Shown here one piece after another: positions 1,688-19,381 of a stretch of DNA of 64,000 nt. The position numbers and the translations under genes are program-made. This stretch comes from Cytophagaceae bacterium (GTDB lineage Bacteria; Bacteroidota; Bacteroidia; Cytophagales; Spirosomataceae): the NCBI GenBank assembly GCA_027491315.1, contig JAIXWL010000001.1, forward strand, positions 434,001 to 498,000, written 5' to 3'. How positions within the stretch are numbered: position 1 is the first letter of the stretch; each line of letters opens with the position of its first letter. The notes under the pieces are model-generated. The model made no database searches. It worked only from the letters and a program-made list of their open reading frames with translations, and was not told where the DNA came from.

Positions 1688-1731
1688 TGCTCCCTCTCCT
1701 GGGCTCGAACCAGGGACCCCATGATTAACAG
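1688..1731 (-). repeat. attL: 44-bp direct repeat, displaced 3' part of tRNA-Asn
   Basis: These 44 bases are identical to 19306-19349. They correspond to the tRNA-Asn gene from the anticodon loop to the 3' end, read on the minus strand. The rest of the tRNA is missing here: beyond 1731 the sequence changes to unrelated element DNA. It is therefore not a functional tRNA gene but the attachment-site copy left on the far side of an integrated element. Confidence 0.92.
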
Positions 1732-1867: not shown

Positions 1868-3553
1868 TTACTCCAAGTAGGTTTTAATCTTGTTTAACAA
1901 ATTCGCCTTATTAAAATACTTGCTTCTATCATTAAAGTGTGAAGCAATAAAATTAGAAAATGACGTAAATGAATTTAACTTATTCTGATGCTTACGGTGG
2001 CGTGACATGGAATATATATATTTTTCTAATAACACTTTAAAATTTAAAGACGACTCGTAAAGTTCAGCACTGTAATAAATTAAAGTATCAATATCTATAA
2101 CTACTAAATCTTTAACTCTTGAAGTATTATATCCCAAGTTTTTTAGTTTCTCAACTTCAATTTTAAACCAAGTATTCAAGATAAAATTAAGTCCGGGAAC
2201 ATCGAAAACCTTATCATGTAAAACCAAAATAGGATATATCTCAATCCTTTCCGGGTTCATTTCAAAGTCAAATTTATATTTGTCATCAAAGAGGTCCTTT
2301 ACACAATTAATAAGCTGTATAATCCCTTTGTTATTTTCATTTGAGTTCATAAACTTTTCTCTGAGAAGTTTTTCATATTGATGATAGTCATAAGAAACCA
2401 ATACTTCCTTCTTAATTAAGACATCTTTACTTTCAAATAAAAAAACACTTTTGCCATTCCTAATGTAAAAATCCGGTTCTTTAACTTTAATACATTTTTT
2501 AATTTCATCGCCTGAAAAACTCAAATACTTGTTTTTAAAAACGCTCAATAATACCGATTGCATTAATATTTTTTCGGAAAATTCATCACAATAAATCGGC
2601 CTAAAATCTTTATAAAACGGTACTTCTCCATTAGTCTTTAGAGTATTATTTATATCATTTAATTTGAAGTACATTCCTTTAAAAATACATTCAAAAACAA
2701 ATGGCAGGTAAACTATCAAATAGTTGCCATTTTTTAACTTTACTATGGGGTTTGACCTTATAGTTTTGAAATCCTCTTCAAATCTTCCCTCTTCATTGTT
2801 CATAATCAATTCGTCTAAAAACAAATGATTATACTCCAAATTATCAGTAATTATAAATTCAATGGATTTATTAGTAAATCGATTATCTATAATATGGCCC
2901 AAAAATGACAATAAGGCTTTTACAAAATCACTCAATTTTGTAATCCCAAATCGATTTATGTACTTACTAAGTAATATGTTTCCGCATTCAGATTTTTTTA
3001 AATATTCAAACAAGAGATTCATCTTGAATACTTGCGTGATGAATATTTTCTGAACATCTGTATTGTTAAAATCGTAATTAGAGAATGATGTTGAAAAAAC
3101 AGCTTCTGCAAATTTCCCTTCATTTATTAAATTCGTTGATTTAGGAGGATTTAGATTTATTTTATCGTTAACAATTAAGATTGCATTAAAAAAACTTACC
3201 TCAGATTGTACAGAAAACTCATTCTCAACATCAGAATTTAAGTTGAACACAACTTCAAATAGAAACAATAATGCTTTCACATTTATTATTTTTACATTCT
3301 TTGATTGGCTCTGAATTCTTGAAATTTTGAATAAAAGTTCATCACGATACTTCTTATTTTTTGAGTTAAAAAAAGAAGTTATCAAATCTCTTTCAAGTAC
3401 AGCATTGTCAGATAAAAATGGCCCTAATAAATGACAAATTGCTTTTAATGCCATCTCTCGATTTATACCAGACATAATCTCTTCTACAGTTTTATCTGAT
3501 GGACCAAATAAATCTGAATAACCAATTAAGACACCATGAGATATTTTTCCCAT
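1868..3553 (-). CDS. PD-(D/E)xK nuclease-like protein, candidate defence gene
   Basis: This 561-residue soluble protein has no signal peptide or membrane segment. The C-terminal half contains KEPDFYIRNGKSVFLFESKD, a good match to the PD-(D/E)xK nuclease core: Asp361, then 12 residues, then Glu374 and Lys376 in an ESK motif between hydrophobic beta strands. The N-terminal 350 residues look helical and are not recognised. The gene lies between the integrase and the att core, the position where integrative elements often carry cargo. It ends 22 bp before the integrase region and is co-oriented with it. A role in restriction or phage defence is inferred from the nuclease core and the location. 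It could instead be a recombination helper. The high AT content resembles the rest of the element. Confidence 0.55.
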   Translation of the reverse strand: MGKISHGVLIGYSDLFGPSDKTVEEIMSGINREMALKAICHLLGPFLSDNAVLERDLITSFFNSKNKKYRDELLFKISRIQSQSKNVKIINVKALLFLFEVVFNLNSDVENEFSVQSEVSFFNAILIVNDKINLNPPKSTNLINEGKFAEAVFSTSFSNYDFNNTDVQKIFITQVFKMNLLFEYLKKSECGNILLSKYINRFGITKLSDFVKALLSFLGHIIDNRFTNKSIEFIITDNLEYNHLFLDELIMNNEEGRFEEDFKTIRSNPIVKLKNGNYLIVYLPFVFECIFKGMYFKLNDINNTLKTNGEVPFYKDFRPIYCDEFSEKILMQSVLLSVFKNKYLSFSGDEIKKCIKVKEPDFYIRNGKSVFLFESKDVLIKKEVLVSYDYHQYEKLLREKFMNSNENNKGIIQLINCVKDLFDDKYKFDFEMNPERIEIYPILVLHDKVFDVPGLNFILNTWFKIEVEKLKNLGYNTSRVKDLVVIDIDTLIYYSAELYESSLNFKVLLEKYIYSMSRHRKHQNKLNSFTSFSNFIASHFNDRSKYFNKANLLNKIKTYLE

Positions 3554-3575: not shown

Positions 3576-4805
3576 TTAAAATAAACAACTGTTTATATCC
3601 TTTGACTGTTCCACCGTTAACTGACCGACATAGTGTTGTGTTACAACAGTGGTGGCGTGGCCTAAGTGTTCGGCAATATGATTTATTGAACGTCCATTCC
3701 GGTTCAAGGTCGTTGCGTAAGAATCACGAGCAATATCAAGTACAAGGTTGAGAGATAGGTCTAATTTCTGAGTTACATACCTCAGCTCCTTATTAATTTC
3801 ACCACACAGCTTATGTGATTTGTTTGATAAGGTAGTGTCAGTATATCCATCCTTCATCTTACCAATAATAAAAGGACTATCCTTGACTCCAATCTTATCT
3901 AACACCTCCTGAAGTTTGTCCGTTATTGGTGCTACAATAGGTTTGATATTACTTCGTCTGGTCGTCTTTGTTTTCGTCCTGTAGAACCTAAAACTTCCTC
4001 CTTTGATATGGTCCCATCTCATCGCCAACAGGTCCACAAAATTGATTCCATTACACCGGTACAGGAACAACCAAATATCTCTTGCCCACTCCTGTTCCTT
4101 CGTTTCAAAATCTGTTAATTCCGCAATTGATTGTATTTCCTCCGCCCTCAAGACCACTTTGGATGGAAAATATGTTCTGATACCAAAACCACCTGCTCCA
4201 AACGGGTACTCATAATCTTGGGGTATAAACTTGGTGATGTTTCTGTGATAATTGATAACCGTACGAATATCAGTCATGTAACCTGAAATGGTTGCTGGTG
4301 AACCGCCTCGTTTTGATACCTCATATTCAAAATCATGTAGAAAGTTAACGGTAATGTCCTTGTAGGTTAACCCCGGCTTGAACTTCTCCAACTGGTTTCT
4401 TGCGGTCTTCATTCTGTTTTTTGACGCAGGTTTTAACCTCTTATTCTCTCTGAAATATTCCGCCATTTCGAAATAAGTCATTTCAGTTGGTGTAATCTTA
4501 ACGACCGGTTCAACTACCTCCTCCTTAAAAAACTCCTCTCTAAACTGTTGTCTATCAAATGGTATTACTCTCTCGAATACCTTCTCCGCCCTCTCTAAAA
4601 ACTCATCACATCTTTGACGATATTCTTTACTCTTGTCATCCAACGACCGCTTAACAAAAATATGGTTATACTGTTGTTCCGTCAGCTTATCAACATTCAA
4701 GTACAAGACTTCTCCTTTGTGTTGAACGATGACTGATAGGTTAAATCTTCCATGCTTATCAGGTCTATTACCTCTCTTGTCTAATCTAATATTAATTGTT
4801 GCCAT
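3576..4805 (-). CDS. Tyrosine recombinase (integrase)
   Basis: The 409-residue protein has an N-terminal arm-binding domain (about 1-100), a core-binding SAM-like domain (about 105-205) and a C-terminal catalytic domain (about 225-405). Near the C-terminus are IARDSYATTLNRNG (box II region), EHLGHATTVVTQHYVG with the LGH histidine, and the nucleophilic tyrosine in HYVG. The box I arginine is replaced: the region reads YRCNGINFVDLL, with Asn where Arg is usual. The first His of HxxR is replaced by Asp (DIAR). Loss of the box I Arg is known in Bacteroidota recombinases related to IntDOT, so the enzyme can still be active. It most likely integrates and excises this element at tRNA-Asn. Its start overlaps the end of the excisionase-like gene by 14 bp. 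Confidence 0.9.
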   Translation of the reverse strand: MATINIRLDKRGNRPDKHGRFNLSVIVQHKGEVLYLNVDKLTEQQYNHIFVKRSLDDKSKEYRQRCDEFLERAEKVFERVIPFDRQQFREEFFKEEVVEPVVKITPTEMTYFEMAEYFRENKRLKPASKNRMKTARNQLEKFKPGLTYKDITVNFLHDFEYEVSKRGGSPATISGYMTDIRTVINYHRNITKFIPQDYEYPFGAGGFGIRTYFPSKVVLRAEEIQSIAELTDFETKEQEWARDIWLFLYRCNGINFVDLLAMRWDHIKGGSFRFYRTKTKTTRRSNIKPIVAPITDKLQEVLDKIGVKDSPFIIGKMKDGYTDTTLSNKSHKLCGEINKELRYVTQKLDLSLNLVLDIARDSYATTLNRNGRSINHIAEHLGHATTVVTQHYVGQLTVEQSKDINSCLF

Positions 4806-5040
4806 AGCGTACTTTTCTATTTAATGTTGGTAATGGGGGTAAGTCCATAGTTGTTCTTACTCCTGATTTAATCCATTGGTCAAGTTCATCTCTGTCGAAT
4901 CGAGGTGAACGACCAATCCTTGAAAATGGTATCTTCCCATCTTTCATCCATGCACCCAATGTGGAACGTGATATATTAAGATAATCACATGTCATCTTAA
5001 CGGTTAGGTACTTAGTGTAGTCGTAAATGAAGTTTCTCAT
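4792..5040 (-). CDS. Excisionase-like helix-turn-helix protein
   Basis: This 82-residue protein has a single MerR-like/HTH_17 domain. TVKMTCDYLNISRSTLGAWM forms the helix-turn-helix, followed by the wing GKIPFSRIGRSPRFDRDEL. That layout is typical of excisionases (recombination directionality factors) and related DNA-binding proteins of Bacteroidota elements. It lies directly upstream of the integrase and overlaps its start by 14 bp, so the two are co-transcribed and translationally coupled. Control of integration versus excision is inferred from family and position; I cannot exclude a purely regulatory role. Confidence 0.75.
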   Translation of the reverse strand: MRNFIYDYTKYLTVKMTCDYLNISRSTLGAWMKDGKIPFSRIGRSPRFDRDELDQWIKSGVRTTMDLPPLPTLNRKVRYGNN

Positions 5041-5099: not shown

Positions 5100-6623
5100 T
5101 TATGCGGCAATCGATAATCCGATTTTTGCTTGTTCTTTTTCCTGTAGGCACTCATCAAATCTCTTCTGGCAAAACTCTACAGATATAGGGTCTATTTCGT
5201 AAGCCACAACCGGTCTACCCAAAGTAAGACCGATGGAAACGGTACCAGTTCCTGCGAAACCGTCAACAATCAAATCGTTAGGACGAGAGTATGCCTTAAT
5301 AAAATCCTTGTAAATAGATGTTGGACATGGAGCGTCATGTTGAAAATCCTTATCCACCGATTTCAATTCTTTGTTATTGAATACTGAAGTTGAAAATACA
5401 TTTGTTTTACATGTTTCAGACGACTTTACGTAGGCCGTCCCAAGTGATGTTCTTCCCAACTTAAATTCTGAAATTGATGATTCGACTTTTACTTGTTCTT
5501 CAAAATATGGTTCTCCACCAGGTTTTCTAACTACAATAATCGCTTCCCATGAATTAATAAATCTATGGGGATGTGCCGTATATTTTTGATTAGACTTAAC
5601 CCAAACATTTGAGTCGATTGATTCCCAACCATTATCTTCCAATCCAACTACGACTCTGTGGATGATATTTCTACACAACCCCTCAGAATAAGATTCCCCC
5701 AAAATTGTAACCATATATCCTCCAGGTTTTAATTTTCTCTTTTTCTCCTCACAGAACATGAGAAAGTTATCAACGTATTCTTTAGCAGTTTTTTCCTTCC
5801 CGTGTGGATTTTCCCCTTGATTACGATAATCTCTTTGGTCCATGTATGGATGAGAATCAATGAAAAGGGCAACTGAGTCATTTTCAATTTCGTCCATCAC
5901 TAAAGAGGATTTATTGTATAACTTGTACCACACATGTGCGTTCTGACCTTCAATAGTTGATAATTTTCTATCGTCAGCATATTTCTGTTTTTTCAATTTA
6001 TCTTGAAGTAATTTATAAGCCTTGTCTACCTTGAAATCTCCATTATCTAACCCCTCCATAAGTCCAAGTTTGTTATCAAGATTTTCTTCCTCGTACCATT
6101 TTACTGCCATCAATTTTCTTAAAGAAGACGCTTTAATGGATAGATTCATCAGATATGACACTAACTGAAATCTATCCATTCCCACAATTCCATAATTATT
6201 ATTGTTCTCAAAGTCTCCGAATCCAAGCATGTTTCGTTTCTTACCTTGTGACTTTCCAATCATTCCCAAATATTGCTCAGCACAATTCGCCATCTCAGAG
6301 TATGACATTTGAGTACGTTGATTACTTGTCATTCTAGCCGTAATCACATCTTCATTTTGAATGTTGATATGAAGACATTTTAGAGTCTTAAAACCTAATT
6401 TCTTTGCTAACTCATAGCGAACCACTCCATCAGTGATGTAGAAGGTACCATCAACCAAATTTCCTAACACCGGCAAGTGTTGACCGAATCTATTCATGGT
6501 ATACTCAATGTGGTCCATCTTCTTTGGTTTGATGACCATTAATACCTCGGAGTGAATTCGAATATCCTCCAACGGTAATACAAAAACTTGAGATGCGTGT
6601 TTCAATAAATTATTCTCTTTCAT
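5100..6623 (-). CDS. ParB-domain/DNA methyltransferase fusion
   Basis: This is a 507-residue, two-part protein. Residues about 10-95 form a ParB/sulfiredoxin-like domain (RFGQHLPVLGNLVDGTFYITDG followed by VRYELAKKLGF, split here for length). The C-terminal half is an N6-adenine or N4-cytosine methyltransferase. The catalytic motif IV is near residue 256 as DSHPYMD, and the SAM-binding motif I is near residue 452 as DGFAGTGTVSIG. With IV before I this is the beta-class order. The catalytic motif has Ser-His where DPPY or SPPY is usual, so activity needs testing. Such ParB-methylase fusions are common on phages and integrative elements and usually lack a cognate restriction enzyme. It may protect element DNA or regulate it (inference). 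Confidence 0.8.
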   Translation of the reverse strand: MKENNLLKHASQVFVLPLEDIRIHSEVLMVIKPKKMDHIEYTMNRFGQHLPVLGNLVDGTFYITDGVVRYELAKKLGFKTLKCLHINIQNEDVITARMTSNQRTQMSYSEMANCAEQYLGMIGKSQGKKRNMLGFGDFENNNNYGIVGMDRFQLVSYLMNLSIKASSLRKLMAVKWYEEENLDNKLGLMEGLDNGDFKVDKAYKLLQDKLKKQKYADDRKLSTIEGQNAHVWYKLYNKSSLVMDEIENDSVALFIDSHPYMDQRDYRNQGENPHGKEKTAKEYVDNFLMFCEEKKRKLKPGGYMVTILGESYSEGLCRNIIHRVVVGLEDNGWESIDSNVWVKSNQKYTAHPHRFINSWEAIIVVRKPGGEPYFEEQVKVESSISEFKLGRTSLGTAYVKSSETCKTNVFSTSVFNNKELKSVDKDFQHDAPCPTSIYKDFIKAYSRPNDLIVDGFAGTGTVSIGLTLGRPVVAYEIDPISVEFCQKRFDECLQEKEQAKIGLSIAA

Positions 6624-7756: not shown

Positions 7757-8488
7757 CTATATCCAATTCTGTTGCCGGAGAAATCTATCCATATTATCTC
7801 TAACAAACTGTAAGTCCTGGCGGACTTCATAGAAGTTTGATGAGCCATATATTTCATATAGTTCATTATTACTTTTAAAAATATGGCAATCATCAATGAA
7901 GTTATGGCCAAAGAATAGATAAAGACCAGCAAAAGAATCTTGAAATTGCTTTACAAAAGGATTAGTAATTTGTTCTGGGTCTGTAGTTAATAGTTCAATT
8001 AACTTTAAACAATCATCTTGGCGCTGATTTTCAATTCTATAAATAGGAATAGAATCATCTATAGCCCCAGTATAATGTAGTTCTTCCTGTATTAATATTT
8101 CTGTAGTAGTAGATGTATTAGTTGTGCCATTATGATGGCATGAGGTGTCTTCTGTGGTAACAGGTACCTGTGTTTCAGTATCACACCCCATATCTTCTAA
8201 TTTGGCAGGTCCATTTATTTTATTCCAAAAATCAGCAACAGGTTTTGTTCTTTTTCCTTTCCCTTTAACTTCTGTGATTTGAATATATCCCTCTGATTCA
8301 AGATTTTTCATTCTCTTATTAACGGCAGAACGCTTTAAGTTTACCAGTTGCCCAAACCTTGTGTCTGACTTAAAACAACCTTTCGGTAGTTTACTCAAAG
8401 AGAGAATCTCGGCCAATAGTATCTTATCTACCGCATCGAATTTATTACATTCTAATAAGGAATAAGAGATATTTAGATATGTATCCAT
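7757..8488 (-). CDS. Winged-helix DNA-binding protein (element regulator or replication protein)
   Basis: The 243-residue protein has an N-terminal winged helix-turn-helix (about residues 18-75). DAVDKILLAEILSLSKLPKG leads in, GQLVNLKRSAVNKRMKNLES forms the recognition part, and EGYIQITEV the wing. This is the HTH_36-like arrangement seen in replication-initiation and phage-type regulatory proteins. A Thr-rich linker (about 100-135) joins it to an uncharacterised acidic and aromatic C-terminal domain. The start at ATG 8486-8488 is well placed. It could regulate the operator-like repeats nearby or help the element replicate; the sequence does not decide. Confidence 0.6.
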   Translation of the reverse strand: MDTYLNISYSLLECNKFDAVDKILLAEILSLSKLPKGCFKSDTRFGQLVNLKRSAVNKRMKNLESEGYIQITEVKGKGKRTKPVADFWNKINGPAKLEDMGCDTETQVPVTTEDTSCHHNGTTNTSTTTEILIQEELHYTGAIDDSIPIYRIENQRQDDCLKLIELLTTDPEQITNPFVKQFQDSFAGLYLFFGHNFIDDCHIFKSNNELYEIYGSSNFYEVRQDLQFVRDNMDRFLRQQNWI

Positions 8489-10802: not shown

Positions 10803-10965
10803 AGGTCAGTAGAGTTCTTTGCGGGATAAGTTGTTAATTTCCGTCATAGGAAGAGGTCTTAAACTTCCTCCAATTTAAAGGATGATTTCTCACTTTCAAA
10901 AGGTAAAATCACTTTGATTATAACCAACTCTTGGCACATTCTTAGGACAAAACGAAAAATATCAG
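10803..10965 (-). repeat. Truncated second copy of the element's right-end sequence
   Basis: This 163-bp segment matches 19011-19171 with only scattered differences. In the right copy the sequence holds the first 14 codons and upstream region of the gene at 17996-19054. Here the same start (ATG at 10845-10847) reads MTEINNLSRKELY and then a stop at 10806-10808, so only a gene remnant is left. The repeat ends at 10965, and the stop codon of the DUF2911 gene begins at 10966: the join to the cargo is sharp. The 157 bp before it (10646-10802) contain nothing I recognise. Confidence 0.85.
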
Positions 10966-11570: not shown

Positions 11571-13799
11571 TTAATACGAAAAAGTAATTCCAGCTCCCAA
11601 TCCCATATCACTATCATAATGCGATGTAATTCCCATGTTTTTGTTTACGATGTAACGAAAACCGGCCATGTATTCCTTATCGGTATTAAGCATAAAACTC
11701 ATTCTAAGTCGTTTGGTAATTGGCATATCTTCTCTCATAAGTTGAAAACGAATATTTCCATCTTGATAGATTTCAGCTTGTCCTACAATAAGTAACGGCA
11801 ACGTGTAATTTACACCGACCGTAACAAGACTTCTTAAGTCCTTGCTATTGGTTTGTCCAAATATATTTGTTTCCTGTTCATCTATTCCAAACTTTCTATA
11901 ACGCCAATCAAAGCCGATAAATGGCATTAACCACTGCATTTTACCGATGTATCTACCAATATGTGTTTCTACCTCATATCCATGAAAATCATGATACCCC
12001 AATCGCCATTCAGAGCCAATGCTCCACCTTGTATTTTGTAACATAGCCATTCCATCATTACCATTTGTTGCAAAATCATTCTCAGCCATAAAATGAAATT
12101 TACGGTCATCTGCAAACAGTTTCCGCTGCGCAAGTTTGGGATTGGGAATCAATGGATTGGGCATCTGATTTTCATAACTAAATACCCTCCCCATACCACT
12201 CATCATGTGGTATAAAATATGACAATGAAAAAACCAATCTCCCTCAACATTCGCATTAAATTCTAATGTGTCTGTTTCCATCGGCATTATATCAACTATG
12301 TTTTTTAAAGGAGCATTTTGTCCTTGACCATTCAGTAATCTAAAATCATGTCCATGCAGGTGCATTGGGTGGCGCATCATGGAACCATTGTATATTACAA
12401 TTCGCACATTCTCCCCTTTTTTGATGAGTATTTTATCCGACTCTGAAACGACTTTATTGTCTAAACTCCAAACGTACCGGTTCATATTACCCGACAGTTT
12501 AAAGTATAATTCTTTTACGGGAGCTGCCTTGGGCAATGCTGTTATAGTAGGGGACTTCAACATGGCATAATTCAGAGTTACAATATCTCCCAGTGCATTG
12601 GCATTATAACGATTGGGGTCATTGTCATCTTGTTTTGGTTTAGCATCGCCCGTTATTTCAGGATACATCACCACATTCATGTCCATTTGATTTAAACTCA
12701 TGGCCATACCCATATCATCCAGTTCACCATTCATCTTCATCATGTCATTCATCATCTTCATCCCTTCAAAATACTTTAATCGGGGTAAAGGTGATTTCAA
12801 CTGTTTTATTCCATTCCCAATATAAATGGATGCGGAATTTGTCCGGTCTTCCGTAGTTGCTAAAAATTCATATGAAGTCTTATCTGCTGGAATGGTAACA
12901 ATGACATCATAGGTTTCCGAAACTGCTATAATTAATCTATCAACTTCAACCGGCTCCACATCATTACCATCATTCGCAACCACAGTAATTTTTCCACCTG
13001 CATAGGTAAGCCAAAAATATGATGATGCACCACCATTTGAAATTCTTAATCTAACTTTATCACCACCTCTTAATTTGTATCCTGAGATACTTTTAAGCTG
13101 TGAACTCGGTTGACCATTAATGAATATTTTTTCATAATAGACATCACTCACATCCATAGCCAACATTCGCTTCCATTCATTTTTCAATTTAGTTTTAAAA
13201 TGACCTGCAGAAATTGCTTCACTATAACTTTGAACGGAGTTCTTTTTCAATGCAGGATAATCATTAGCATTATGGAGCATTCTATGGATGTTCTCAGGTT
13301 TTAGATTGGTCCACTCACTCAAAACGATGGGGAGTGTTGGTAAATCATCTATTCCCTTTCTAAAGGTGGGGTCATTGGGTCTTTTTAACATGACAAAATT
13401 CCCATACATTCCTATTTGCTCTTGTAATCCTGAATGCGAATGATACCAATGCGTACCATTTTGAATGATGGGAAAACGATAGATATGAGTTGTATTTGGC
13501 CGAATAGGCATTTGTGTCAGGTTGGGAACCCCATCTTCTTTATTGGGTAAAAATAGCCCGTGCCAATGTAACGATGTTTCCTCCTTAAGCTGGTTATGAA
13601 CATGTATTTCAGCCGTATCTCCTTCGGTAAAAGTCAAAGTTGGCATAGGTATTTGACCATTAACCGCAATCGCACGTTTTTCTTTGCCGGCAAAATGCAC
13701 TAAAGTATCTTTCACGTAAAGGTCGTAACGGACTACATTTTGTCCATATATATTTATCGAAAAAAGGAATAAAATGGCAATTATTAGTATCAATCTCAT
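11571..13799 (-). CDS. Multicopper oxidase fused to a CopB-like outer-membrane domain
   Basis: This 742-residue secreted protein starts with a signal peptide ending near YGQ. The first ~550 residues are a multicopper oxidase with all four copper clusters: HWH at 78-80, HWYHSH at 117-122, HPMHLHGHDF near 477 and HCHILYHMMSGM near 521 (the trinuclear and type 1 sites). A Met-rich stretch near 345-375 (MKMMNDMMKMNGELDDMGMA) is typical of Cu(I)-binding CopA/CueO-like oxidases. The last ~190 residues resemble the CopB beta-barrel family (GSEWRLGYHDFHGYEVE, HIGRYIGKMQWLMPFIG). The fusion would combine periplasmic Cu(I) oxidation with outer-membrane copper handling. It is the central gene of the cargo, 2 bp from the HMA-membrane gene. 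Confidence 0.9.
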   Translation of the reverse strand: MRLILIIAILFLFSINIYGQNVVRYDLYVKDTLVHFAGKEKRAIAVNGQIPMPTLTFTEGDTAEIHVHNQLKEETSLHWHGLFLPNKEDGVPNLTQMPIRPNTTHIYRFPIIQNGTHWYHSHSGLQEQIGMYGNFVMLKRPNDPTFRKGIDDLPTLPIVLSEWTNLKPENIHRMLHNANDYPALKKNSVQSYSEAISAGHFKTKLKNEWKRMLAMDVSDVYYEKIFINGQPSSQLKSISGYKLRGGDKVRLRISNGGASSYFWLTYAGGKITVVANDGNDVEPVEVDRLIIAVSETYDVIVTIPADKTSYEFLATTEDRTNSASIYIGNGIKQLKSPLPRLKYFEGMKMMNDMMKMNGELDDMGMAMSLNQMDMNVVMYPEITGDAKPKQDDNDPNRYNANALGDIVTLNYAMLKSPTITALPKAAPVKELYFKLSGNMNRYVWSLDNKVVSESDKILIKKGENVRIVIYNGSMMRHPMHLHGHDFRLLNGQGQNAPLKNIVDIMPMETDTLEFNANVEGDWFFHCHILYHMMSGMGRVFSYENQMPNPLIPNPKLAQRKLFADDRKFHFMAENDFATNGNDGMAMLQNTRWSIGSEWRLGYHDFHGYEVETHIGRYIGKMQWLMPFIGFDWRYRKFGIDEQETNIFGQTNSKDLRSLVTVGVNYTLPLLIVGQAEIYQDGNIRFQLMREDMPITKRLRMSFMLNTDKEYMAGFRYIVNKNMGITSHYDSDMGLGAGITFSY

Positions 13800-13801
13800 G
13801 T

Positions 13802-14515
13802 TTAAAATAAATTTAAAATCATATATCCACTCATTACAATCATCAATGCATCTTCGATTATTGTAACAGTACTCATTGGCAAATTAAAAACTGCCCCCAA
13901 ACAAGCACATTGTATTTTCTTATTATCAAATACCGACTGCAAAACCCCTAATATACTTACACTCATGACTACAAACGTACATGTATTTGTTATCAATGGA
14001 TTGTAATTTAAAAGATAAGAAATGCCCAAGCCAACTTCTACAAAAGCGTATAAATATGCCCAAATGGGTATTTTCTTTGCTACCACATCATACATTACAT
14101 AACTTTCAGCAAAACCTTTTAGATTTAATAATTTGAAAAACGAGAACACCAAGAAGAACCCAGCCATAAAATGCTGCATCGCCTCCATTAAAATAAATTG
14201 TTCGTTTTTTAGTTGAATTAATAATGTAATAGTAGTGATATAGAGAAATATTAACAGAATAGGAGTATAGGTTTGAAACCAAGATTTTGCTTGCTCCTCT
14301 AATTCAATGTGTTCTATTGCAGAAATGGTATATTTTGCATCTAACACTTTCTGAAAATCTGACAAGCTAATATGCCTATCCATTGAAATTGTCACCCTAC
14401 TGTCCTCCTTTGAAACTTCCACCTTAGTTACGTTTTCAACCCTCTCTAACGATGATTTTACTTTTGCTTCACAACTTGTACAGGTCATTCCAGTTAATTG
14501 ATATGTATGTATCAT
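13802..14515 (-). CDS. Heavy-metal-binding domain fused to a MauE/DoxX-like membrane protein
   Basis: The 237-residue protein begins with an HMA (heavy-metal-associated) domain of about 70 residues, with the metal-binding motif GMTCTSC (Cys12 and Cys15). Four hydrophobic segments follow (about 88-103, 113-131, 150-168 and 175-193), with a further one at the C-terminus. A second cysteine pair, IQCACLGAVFNLPMST, near residues 200-215 resembles the MauE/DoxX-type redox-associated membrane proteins. It could pass copper across or along the inner membrane for the oxidase encoded directly downstream. Its stop lies two bases before the oxidase ATG, which implies co-transcription. The transport direction is inference. 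Confidence 0.8.
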   Translation of the reverse strand: MIHTYQLTGMTCTSCEAKVKSSLERVENVTKVEVSKEDSRVTISMDRHISLSDFQKVLDAKYTISAIEHIELEEQAKSWFQTYTPILLIFLYITTITLLIQLKNEQFILMEAMQHFMAGFFLVFSFFKLLNLKGFAESYVMYDVVAKKIPIWAYLYAFVEVGLGISYLLNYNPLITNTCTFVVMSVSILGVLQSVFDNKKIQCACLGAVFNLPMSTVTIIEDALMIVMSGYMILNLF

Positions 14516-17995: not shown

Positions 17996-19054
17996 TCACA
18001 AAACCCGCCTCATAAGTTCCAAGGACGACCTATCGGCATAATCAAGTTTTTCATGTGGTTTTAATATGATTGGGTCGTACCAATCAACCGCATCGCTTGC
18101 CCATTGAATCCAATTTTCATCACGGTATTTTGACGCGGCATTGATATAATCACGCATCATTTGACATTCATGGTACCGGCGAGCATTCATCTTTAATTTT
18201 TTAAACTCGTCAATATCATTTTGAATTACTTTCTGTCGAGCAAGTCTCTCTTTCTCAAGCCTTTCTCTCTCACGACTATTATGTTCAATTTGAATGAGAT
18301 ATAATTTCTCATTCATGAAGTAATCATCCAATTGAAGTACAATTATATCTATGCGCTCCTCCAACTTTATCTTACCATCTTTCCATTGCTTGGAACGGTA
18401 ACCCTCAATGTTAATAGAAAGTAATCCATTAGGTGTTAAAGAGGGTGAGTTCCAACCATGTTTGTCCTTGAAGAATTTACGATTATTGAGTTCTCGACAA
18501 TTGATAGTTTATTTAATATCATACTTTTCAATTCTTAATGAACCCCGTATAATTTCATACCTAAATCCACGCTTGGTAATTGATTTTAAAAAGAAACCCA
18601 TTATCCTCAATGCTCGATTCAACAACTTGAAATTCGACACCTTTATACTTAACACTTCTGATGAACGAGTCATTGGCCACCAACTTGTAAACTTATATTG
18701 CTTTAACTCGGCTTCCGCTTCCAATATTTCAGGTAACGGATTTGTCAACTTTAATGGCACCTCCGTTCTAATTGGTTTAAACTTTTTAACCAACTCCTTT
18801 GTAGATTTTATCTTTGGAACATACTGAATCATGTTAGAACCATCAAAGTCCTCGATGAAAGGAATGATTTTAACTGGCTTTGAATACTTTAGCTTAGACC
18901 AATGTCCATTCTTTGGTAGGGGTATTTGGTAATCAATACAGATTTTCCTCAATTCGAGGTCGCTTAAATCATGTTCCTTTGATAGGGTTGAAATTGGTTT
19001 TGACCATACTAGGTCATAGAGTTCTTTGCGGGATAAGCTGTTAATTTTCGTCAT
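17996..19054 (-). pseudogene. Mobile-element gene broken by one in-frame stop codon
   Basis: The two open frames 18509-19054 and 17996-18364 are in the same reading frame. Translating across the gap gives continuous protein-like sequence (after TAA at 18509-18511: NNRKFFKDKHGWNSPSLTPN, then INIEGYRSKQWKDGKIKLEE). A single TAA therefore interrupts one gene of about 352 codons. Its N-terminus (LSRKELYDLVWSKPISTLSK, then a helix-turn-helix-like stretch ending IPLPKNGHWSKL) matches a family I recall as widespread on integrative elements, with a DNA-binding-like start and unknown function. The first 14 codons and upstream region are duplicated at 10803-10965. Whether the first 181 residues still act alone is unknown. 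Confidence 0.75.
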
Positions 19055-19171
19055 AGGAAGAGGTATTAAACTTCCTCCAATTTACAGGATGATTTCTCAC
19101 TTTAAAAAGGTGAAATCACGTTGATTAAAAACAACTCTTGGCACATTCTTGGCACAAAACGAAAATATCAG
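19011..19171 (-). repeat. Right-end copy of the 160-bp internal direct repeat
   Basis: This is the intact partner of 10803-10965. It contains the first 14 codons of the broken gene (17996-19054), its upstream region, and a TCTTGGC pair (19136-19142, 19147-19153) like the one near the left end. It lies 135 bp inside the right att core. The remaining 19172-19305 is non-coding and includes the tRNA-side hairpin at about 19277-19299. Confidence 0.85.
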
Positions 19172-19305
19172 ATATAATCCTCTTAGAAAAAGGTCTAAAA
19201 ATCACCAAACCCTCTTCTGAGCTCGAACCACAAAAATCGATGAATGGATGTAATAGGGAAGGTTTTTAAACGAAAAAAGTCACCATTTCTGATGACTTTC
19301 TTGTT

Positions 19306-19349
19306 TGCTCCCTCTCCTGGGCTCGAACCAGGGACCCCATGATTAACAG
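19306..19349 (-). repeat. attR: 44-bp core within tRNA-Asn
   Basis: This is identical to 1688-1731. Here the core is part of a complete tRNA-Asn and covers it from the anticodon loop to the 3' end. The element thus rebuilt the tRNA gene when it inserted, which is the usual strategy of tRNA-targeting integrases. Confidence 0.92.
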
Positions 19350-19381
19350 TCATGTGCTCTAACCGACTGAGCTAAGAAGGA
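19308..19381 (-). tRNA. tRNA-Asn (GTT)
   Basis: The 74-nt minus-strand sequence folds as a standard tRNA. The acceptor stem is TCCTTCT with AGAGGGA (one G-U pair). The D arm begins AGCTCAGTCGG. The anticodon stem is CATGA/TCATG around loop CTGTTAA, giving anticodon GTT (plus strand AAC, 19345-19347). The T arm is CCTGG TTCGAGC CCAGG and the discriminator is G. CCA is not encoded (GCAA follows). Its 3' half is the integration site of the mobile element, and it is intact, so the cell keeps a working gene. Confidence 0.95.

Follow-up and report, generated by a model that had tools for sequence, protein, structure and literature searches.

In the 64,000-nt stretch of DNA analyzed here (the window), a row of genes on the minus strand ends at a partial copy of a tRNA-Asn gene (Table 1). 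Read in the coding direction, an HTH_17 gene is followed by a tyrosine integrase gene, then by an ORF of 561 codons with an ATG start, whose product we call P0001, and finally by the att copy. The HTH_17 and integrase genes overlap by 14 bp, and the integrase stop codon lies 22 bp from the start of the P0001 gene. Given this close spacing on a single strand, the three genes probably form one operon (xis-int-nuclease), in which the HTH_17 protein may serve as the excisionase. A promoter scan yielded 20 sites, about equal to the 17.1 obtained in shuffled DNA; one of them (3570-3543) spans the P0001 start codon. The GC content of the P0001 gene (27.3%) is the lowest among the 38 window ORFs of at least 200 aa, the window mean being 37.2%.

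Table 1. Features of the element in the window. Active-site codon positions were computed from the start at 3553.
Feature	Positions	Strand	Basis
att core, left end: copy of the tRNA-Asn 3′ end	1689..1731	.	exact 43-nt match
PD-(D/E)xK nuclease candidate, likely GAPS1-related (P0001), 561 aa	1868..3553	-	ORF, alignment, AF2 model, profile comparison
Codons of the predicted active site	2315..2575	-	invariant in 60/60 A3 rows; model secondary structure
Q413 codon	2315..2317	-	
K376 codon	2426..2428	-	
E374 codon	2432..2434	-	
D361 codon	2471..2473	-	
E327 codon	2573..2575	-	
Tyrosine integrase of the element	3576..4805	-	PF00589 5.8e-8, PF13102 2.8e-9
HTH_17 protein, excisionase-like	4792..5040	-	PF12728 2e-14
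N6/N4 DNA methyltransferase with ParB-like N-terminal part, on the element	5100..6623	-	PF01555 2.1e-24; phrog_67 3.1e-21; phrog_8071 ParB-like 2e-5
Element protein resembling replication-initiation proteins or helicase loaders	7757..8488	-	phrog_186 4.1e-8; phrog_428 7.5e-8
Intact tRNA-Asn, other end of the element	19307..19381	-	19307-19349 is the second att core

The left att copy lies 136 bp past the P0001 stop codon, so that the gene is flanked by the integrase and an att core, just as the original prediction had it. The exact 43-nt repeat of the tRNA-Asn 3′ end gives the element a length of 17.6 kb; more broadly viewed, the att pair is a 55-nt repeat (93% identity) whose partner lies at 19295-19349. 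In five of 37 further genomes searched in the genus (G007, G030, G032, G033, and G035), DNA matching the window from 674-728 up to 900 stops 29 to 30 nt from the same tRNA-Asn gene, an arrangement that would be expected where this element is absent. The window also holds, at 885-933, an extra short repeat of the DNA just outside the tRNA-Asn gene together with a few bases of the tRNA 3′ end; the repeats at 885-933 and 1689 suggest that 934-1688 is what remains of a second insertion and that this tRNA-Asn site is a hotspot. Repeated copies are likewise seen at this site in G030 and G033.

Besides the proteins in Table 1, the element has a DNA-invertase-like serine recombinase and further genes that, from their translations alone, read as a copper/heavy-metal set. 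This putative cargo is flanked by a 149-nt direct repeat (93% identical; 10810-10958 and 19017-19165), which suggests nested insertion or, alternatively, a site of recombination. On Hymenobacter plasmids, three homologues of P0001 (L034, L036, and L037) adjoin heavy-metal P-type ATPase, cupredoxin, and AraC genes; the metal genes near these homologues and seemingly on the window element may be either common cargo or coincidence.

Predicted active site and fold

The original prediction had described a large ORF with Asp361, Glu374, and Lys376 (ESK) as the core of a PD-(D/E)xK nuclease. When P0001 was aligned with the homologues of 59 of 78 loci (alignment A3, from which near-identical homologues, the split L102, and the short L113 and L108 were dropped), all three of these residues proved invariant in 60 of 60 rows, as did two further residues that had not been named earlier, E327 and Q413. 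The acidic pair and the (D/E)xK motif, the latter set in P0001 in the context FLFESKD, are therefore at conserved places throughout the aligned family, whose other members are 21 to 33% identical to P0001; the motif goes beyond a chance occurrence. D261, P269, and P441 are likewise invariant across the 60 aligned proteins.

The AlphaFold2 model of P0001 (pLDDT 86.6, pTM 0.90) has an almost entirely helical N-terminal domain (residues 1 to about 230), with the nuclease part C-terminal to it. In the model, helix 317-339 contains E327, strand 362-366 begins right after D361, strand 369-376 carries E374 and K376 at its end, and helix 410-422, which contains Q413, is followed by strand 438-445. The resulting succession (helix with E327, strand, strand with D361 ahead of it, strand with E374 and K376, helix with Q413, strand) is the order of the PD-(D/E)xK core, and the model, together with its Foldseek matches, supports the α-β-β-β-α-β core of that superfamily, which the original prediction had put in the C-terminal half of the protein. 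A Foldseek search of the PDB returned Upx (9wuf) at the top, with the sole E value below 0.001 (1.5e-4), followed by Nt.BspD6I and R.BspD6I2 (E 0.005 to 0.05); McrC, the Holliday junction resolvases (Hjc), Can2, and LmuA were weak matches (E > 0.1). We take Upx, the BspD6I enzymes, McrC, and Hjc to be members of the PD-(D/E)xK superfamily. No BFVD viral model matched the P0001 model below 0.001, and no PDB chain sequence matched profiles A1 and A3 at an E value of 10 or less. Because the catalytic residues are invariant and the fold agrees, the assignment of P0001 as a PD-(D/E)xK nuclease with an intact predicted active site is well supported.

Comparison with GAPS1 and other nucleases

Searched as a single sequence, P0001 found no match in Pfam, PADLOC 2023, NCBIfam 2026, PHROGs 4, or the phage collection, and a related-locus search with P0001 alone also returned nothing; the gene is thus without a family in Pfam, PADLOC, NCBIfam, and PHROGs, which bears out its description as undescribed. 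NERD (4e-4), L_protein_N (2.7e-4), and GapS1 (0.014) each gave a weak match in 1 of 19 family members and were set aside. In the literature on GAPS1, Upx, and Bacteroidota integrase-linked nucleases, the titles and abstract openings among the matches listed do not describe the P0001 family, subscription papers and outside preprints lying beyond the scope of that search.

The NCBIfam model of antiphage_GapS1 (NF047931) does not match P0001, its curated cut-off of 320 bits not being reached. Against the same model, the best family member seen (the L033 homologue) scored 26 bits (E 3.9e-6). The homologues of G444 (3.5e-6) and G225 (0.0475) were weakly matched, three other weak matches in the 17 genomes searched fell outside the homologue, and the GapS1 model was absent from the hmmscan results for the G225 homologue (L022). 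A passage in one paper, which refers to Mahata et al. (2024) for GAPS1, describes Klebsiella phage ST437-OXA245phi4.1 as carrying a GAPS1-like protein (PMC12774648). The gene after the integrase of this phage (3 of its 53 CDSs were scanned) encodes GapS1 by NCBIfam, at 393 bits. Elsewhere in the same phage (L116, 26579-27658), a weak match to GapS4b was seen (6.8e-6; 25 bits versus a cut-off of 300).

We aligned the Klebsiella phage protein with ten relatives (alignment A4), leaving out L121 (GapS1 2.8e-5). Of the nine relatives scanned (all but L128), seven exceeded 320 bits, and L119 (212 bits) and L120 (53 bits) lay below. Comparison of the family profile with A4 by hhalign gave a probability of 95.9, an E value of 5.7e-9, and a score of 79.6 over 244 columns, with D361/D316, K376/K331, and Q413/Q362 (P0001/GapS1) paired in register. 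Control scores were 17.7 for reversed GapS1 and at most 21.3 for 60 permuted GapS1 alignments; L134 yielded no ORF for this set of comparisons. Shedu (SduA, PF14082) and Mrr (PF04471) are likewise PD-(D/E)xK proteins; both were rejected as relatives, their profile scores (15.6 with 4 control sequences and 17.8 with 8, respectively) being at background, and P0001 has no Pfam match to SduA_C (PF14082).

When each of the 11 rows of A4 was left out in turn, the score stayed between 65.6 and 83.0, with up to 380 columns aligned, so that no dependence on a single bridging sequence was seen. Without L119 and L120, A4 scored 71.1, and a set of 20 GapS1 sequences, also without these two, scored 64.2, its 40 permutations reaching at most 22.0. 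Diversity in the GapS1 alignment is nevertheless something the match depends on: with 13 viral GapS1 sequences alone it was weak (probability 8.1, score 33.2, E 0.0042), the register being unchanged. The claim that the N-terminal 350 residues match nothing holds, then, for single-sequence searches and not for profiles, which point to distant kinship with GAPS1 over 377 to 380 columns in some runs.

The predicted structures point the same way. In the AlphaFold2 model of a viral GapS1 (pLDDT 85.9, pTM 0.87), the helices and strands of the C-terminal half follow one another, judged by eye, as they do in P0001. Both proteins would comprise a helical N-terminal domain followed by PD-(D/E)xK, and the invariant P239, E284, D316, K331, and Q362 of GapS1 correspond, with similar spacing, to P269, E327, D361, K376, and Q413 of P0001. 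The two differ in the motif, which is ExK in the P0001 family but DxK in 8 of 11 GapS1-type sequences, in length (about 480 to 530 aa for GapS1; about 540 to 620 aa for the P0001 family), and in host, the P0001 family being found only in placeable Bacteroidota contigs or unassigned viral contigs. From these profile and model comparisons, common ancestry of the P0001 family and GAPS1 appears likely. Since its members score far below the NCBI GapS1 cut-off, we keep the P0001 family apart from GAPS1; it is, judged by its sequences, a distant relative of that named antiphage family with no name in the libraries searched.

The genomic setting offers a further likeness. The P0001 gene stands directly 3′ of an integrase, an arrangement shared by the GapS1 gene at 16 of the 28 viral loci, or 6 of 13 groups when these are clustered at 90% identity; in 7 of the remaining loci no integrase is seen, and in 5 the integrase is over 1 kb distant. 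The integrases adjoining viral GapS1 are 77 to 99.7% identical to one query, and being so closely related, these loci are not independent.

Upx is the best solved structure for both the P0001 family and viral GapS1, for which its E value was 8.9e-3 and no PDB match fell below 0.001. The fold match is partial, Upx having 1,212 residues versus the 561 aa of P0001, and the TM-score by query length is low (0.26); this low score and the lack of a match below 0.001 for GapS1 indicate a likeness that is only local or flexible. The restriction and nicking enzymes R.BspD6I and Nt.BspD6I are second best for both families, again with a low whole-chain TM-score. They differ from the P0001 family also in that the latter lacks a constant methyltransferase partner.

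Distribution and genomic company of the homologues

Elsewhere in the genus, P0001 has no homologue (0 of 37 genomes searched); homologues were found in 2 of 98 further relatives and 14 of 394 further genomes of the phylum (the raw tallies, 3 of 99 and 15 of 395, include the genome of the window). They occur on 8 of 72,556 plasmids, all from Hymenobacter, and in none of 50,697 phage records. Of the 78 loci, 76 lie in GTDB genome contigs, where every placeable organism belongs to the Bacteroidota, and 2 (L115 among them) lie in viral contigs; this spread is biased toward the Bacteroidota, since the search patterns were derived from Bacteroidota sequences. An identical 579-aa homologue occurs in Aquimarina, Zeaxanthinibacter, and Maribacter contigs, and the surrounding DNA is 94.7 to 97.3% alike across 5 to 15 kb, so that, if the assemblies are clean, the gene has moved recently between genera. 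Locus L097 has two family members on opposite strands, roughly 1 kb apart; the additional one (12742-14415, E 1.2e-25) is divergent.

For the neighborhood analysis we used 93 homologues (those of 77 of the 78 loci, that of the window, and 15 more) in 59 groups at 75% identity, excluding L020, L021, L022, and L026, which seem to duplicate later loci, and also the split L036 homologue. By phmmer with six integrases, a tyrosine integrase was detected in the available flanking DNA of 14 groups, the other 45 being without one. The nearest listed PF00589 integrase lies less than 2 kb from the homologue in at least 4 of 17 genomes, versus 0.25 expected (P = 8e-5), and in at least 3 of 16 when the window is excluded (P = 0.0014); distances were read by hand among the places listed, and proximity may be undercounted. 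With integrases nearby above chance and homologues so patchy, the family is accessory, a view the data support, and not the housekeeping gene that the original prediction had weighed against itself. That the P0001 gene is horizontally mobile accessory cargo is well supported.

One might suppose that such a gene serves the element itself, acting on excision or replication intermediates, aiding stability, or excluding rivals at the tRNA-Asn hotspot, with no antiphage role. We regard this as unlikely. A tyrosine integrase in the available flanking DNA of only 14 of 59 groups and the eight homologues on plasmids make the gene independent of this integrase or element type, and the same place next to an integrase is taken, in the 16 viral loci described above, by GapS1, a family that NCBI names as antiphage. 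What speaks for a service role is the 22-bp, same-strand spacing from the integrase, the possession by the element of its own replication-initiation-like and ParB/methyltransferase proteins, and the signs of repeated insertion at the tRNA-Asn site.

The immediate neighbors of the homologues were collected as a set (A5) of 111 of 112 listed proteins, the L102 homologue fragment being dropped and genes of 1,300 aa or more lying outside the list. The PADLOC and Pfam matches listed for them include type I methyltransferases, pAgo, SIR2, AAA_13, type ISP, SMEK, and PIN_8, each defense-type family among these matches being represented by one to four proteins. A pAgo gene adjoins L070, and a type III methyltransferase gene adjoins L113. 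Most of the listed family names stand for one protein each, and many are ordinary metabolic ones. Ten of the 111 neighbors were scanned singly, 3 of them with a PADLOC match. In the comparison set, genes eight places off, the matches listed include ArdC, TraL, and GmrSD and also the PADLOC candidates PDC-S05, PDC-S23, and HEC-05; the PADLOC families for the two sets are the best 25 of 118 and the best 25 of 48, respectively. The protein adjoining the L031 homologue reads, from its sequence, as RloC-like, and L092 looks in the same way like a prophage.

Methyltransferases in this company, and the N6/N4 methyltransferase on the element, raise the reading that P0001 is a restriction endonuclease, cutting unmodified DNA and paired with the element's methyltransferase or with neighboring restriction-modification genes. 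Structural likeness to R.BspD6I and Nt.BspD6I would agree with it, as would the 4 of 59 groups (L049, L087, L095, and L031) in which the homologue is followed immediately by an HsdM-type gene, and the other methyltransferase families next door. However, no methyltransferase is a constant neighbor (among the matches listed, N6_Mtase occurs in 4 of 111 and N6_N4_Mtase in 1 of 111), and in the window the integrase and HTH genes separate the P0001 gene from the methyltransferase. The type I loci of L049 and L095 seem, moreover, to have their own HsdR (1,064 and 1,017 aa, by eye from the sequence). In these four groups the homologue sits just before HsdM in a seeming type I restriction-modification operon, which is perhaps a preferred insertion point. 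We have demoted the restriction reading because a methyltransferase is not a constant neighbor, and for want of a constant cognate one we reject type II restriction-modification as the main reading; restriction in any form strikes us as improbable.

A stand-alone nuclease carried by a mobile element can act as an addiction factor, and on that basis P0001 could be a toxin-like addiction or cell-killing effector that stabilizes the element without phage protection. In the unsupervised clustering of the neighbors, genes read as conjugation genes recurred in up to 7 groups, a resolvase was shared by 4 groups, and 3 groups had an AbiEii-like protein. No constant small partner appeared among the neighbor families recurring in three or more groups (ORFs of at least 70 aa), which argues against addiction, and we give that reading very little credence.

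A proposed antiphage role and its implications

The reading that we prefer, and hold to be reasonably probable, is that P0001 is a single-gene, stand-alone nuclease directed against phages (or other mobile elements), belonging to a sister family of GAPS1 so far seen in the Bacteroidota. GAPS1 is reported to protect bacteria from phages. Two passages of another paper name Upx among antiphage systems (PMC12629846). The relation to GAPS1, the likeness to Upx, and the genomic company of the homologues suggest that P0001 would defend its host against phages, the role originally proposed for it. In such a mechanism, the helical N-terminal domain would sense a cue of infection, and sensing would release the metal-dependent nuclease to cut nucleic acid (DNA or RNA). 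Cleavage might then stop phage growth, either because phage DNA is destroyed or because the infected cell is halted.

A wider and more speculative possibility, to which we lean less than to its alternatives, is that a single superfamily of stand-alone immune nucleases has branched into the P0001 family, GAPS1, and Upx, each of the three pairing an all-helical sensor with an E-D-(D/E)xK-Q nuclease. In phages as well as integrative elements, and across unrelated phyla, the integrase operon would then be a favored home for them, the immune nuclease being carried in step with the integrase.

To our knowledge, few defense genes in Bacteroidota elements have been tested in the laboratory. If the antiphage reading is true, a family without a library name would become a testable antiphage gene, and GAPS1 would gain a sister group in the Bacteroidota. 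The slot between integrase and att would likewise be supported as a place for immune genes in Bacteroidota elements.
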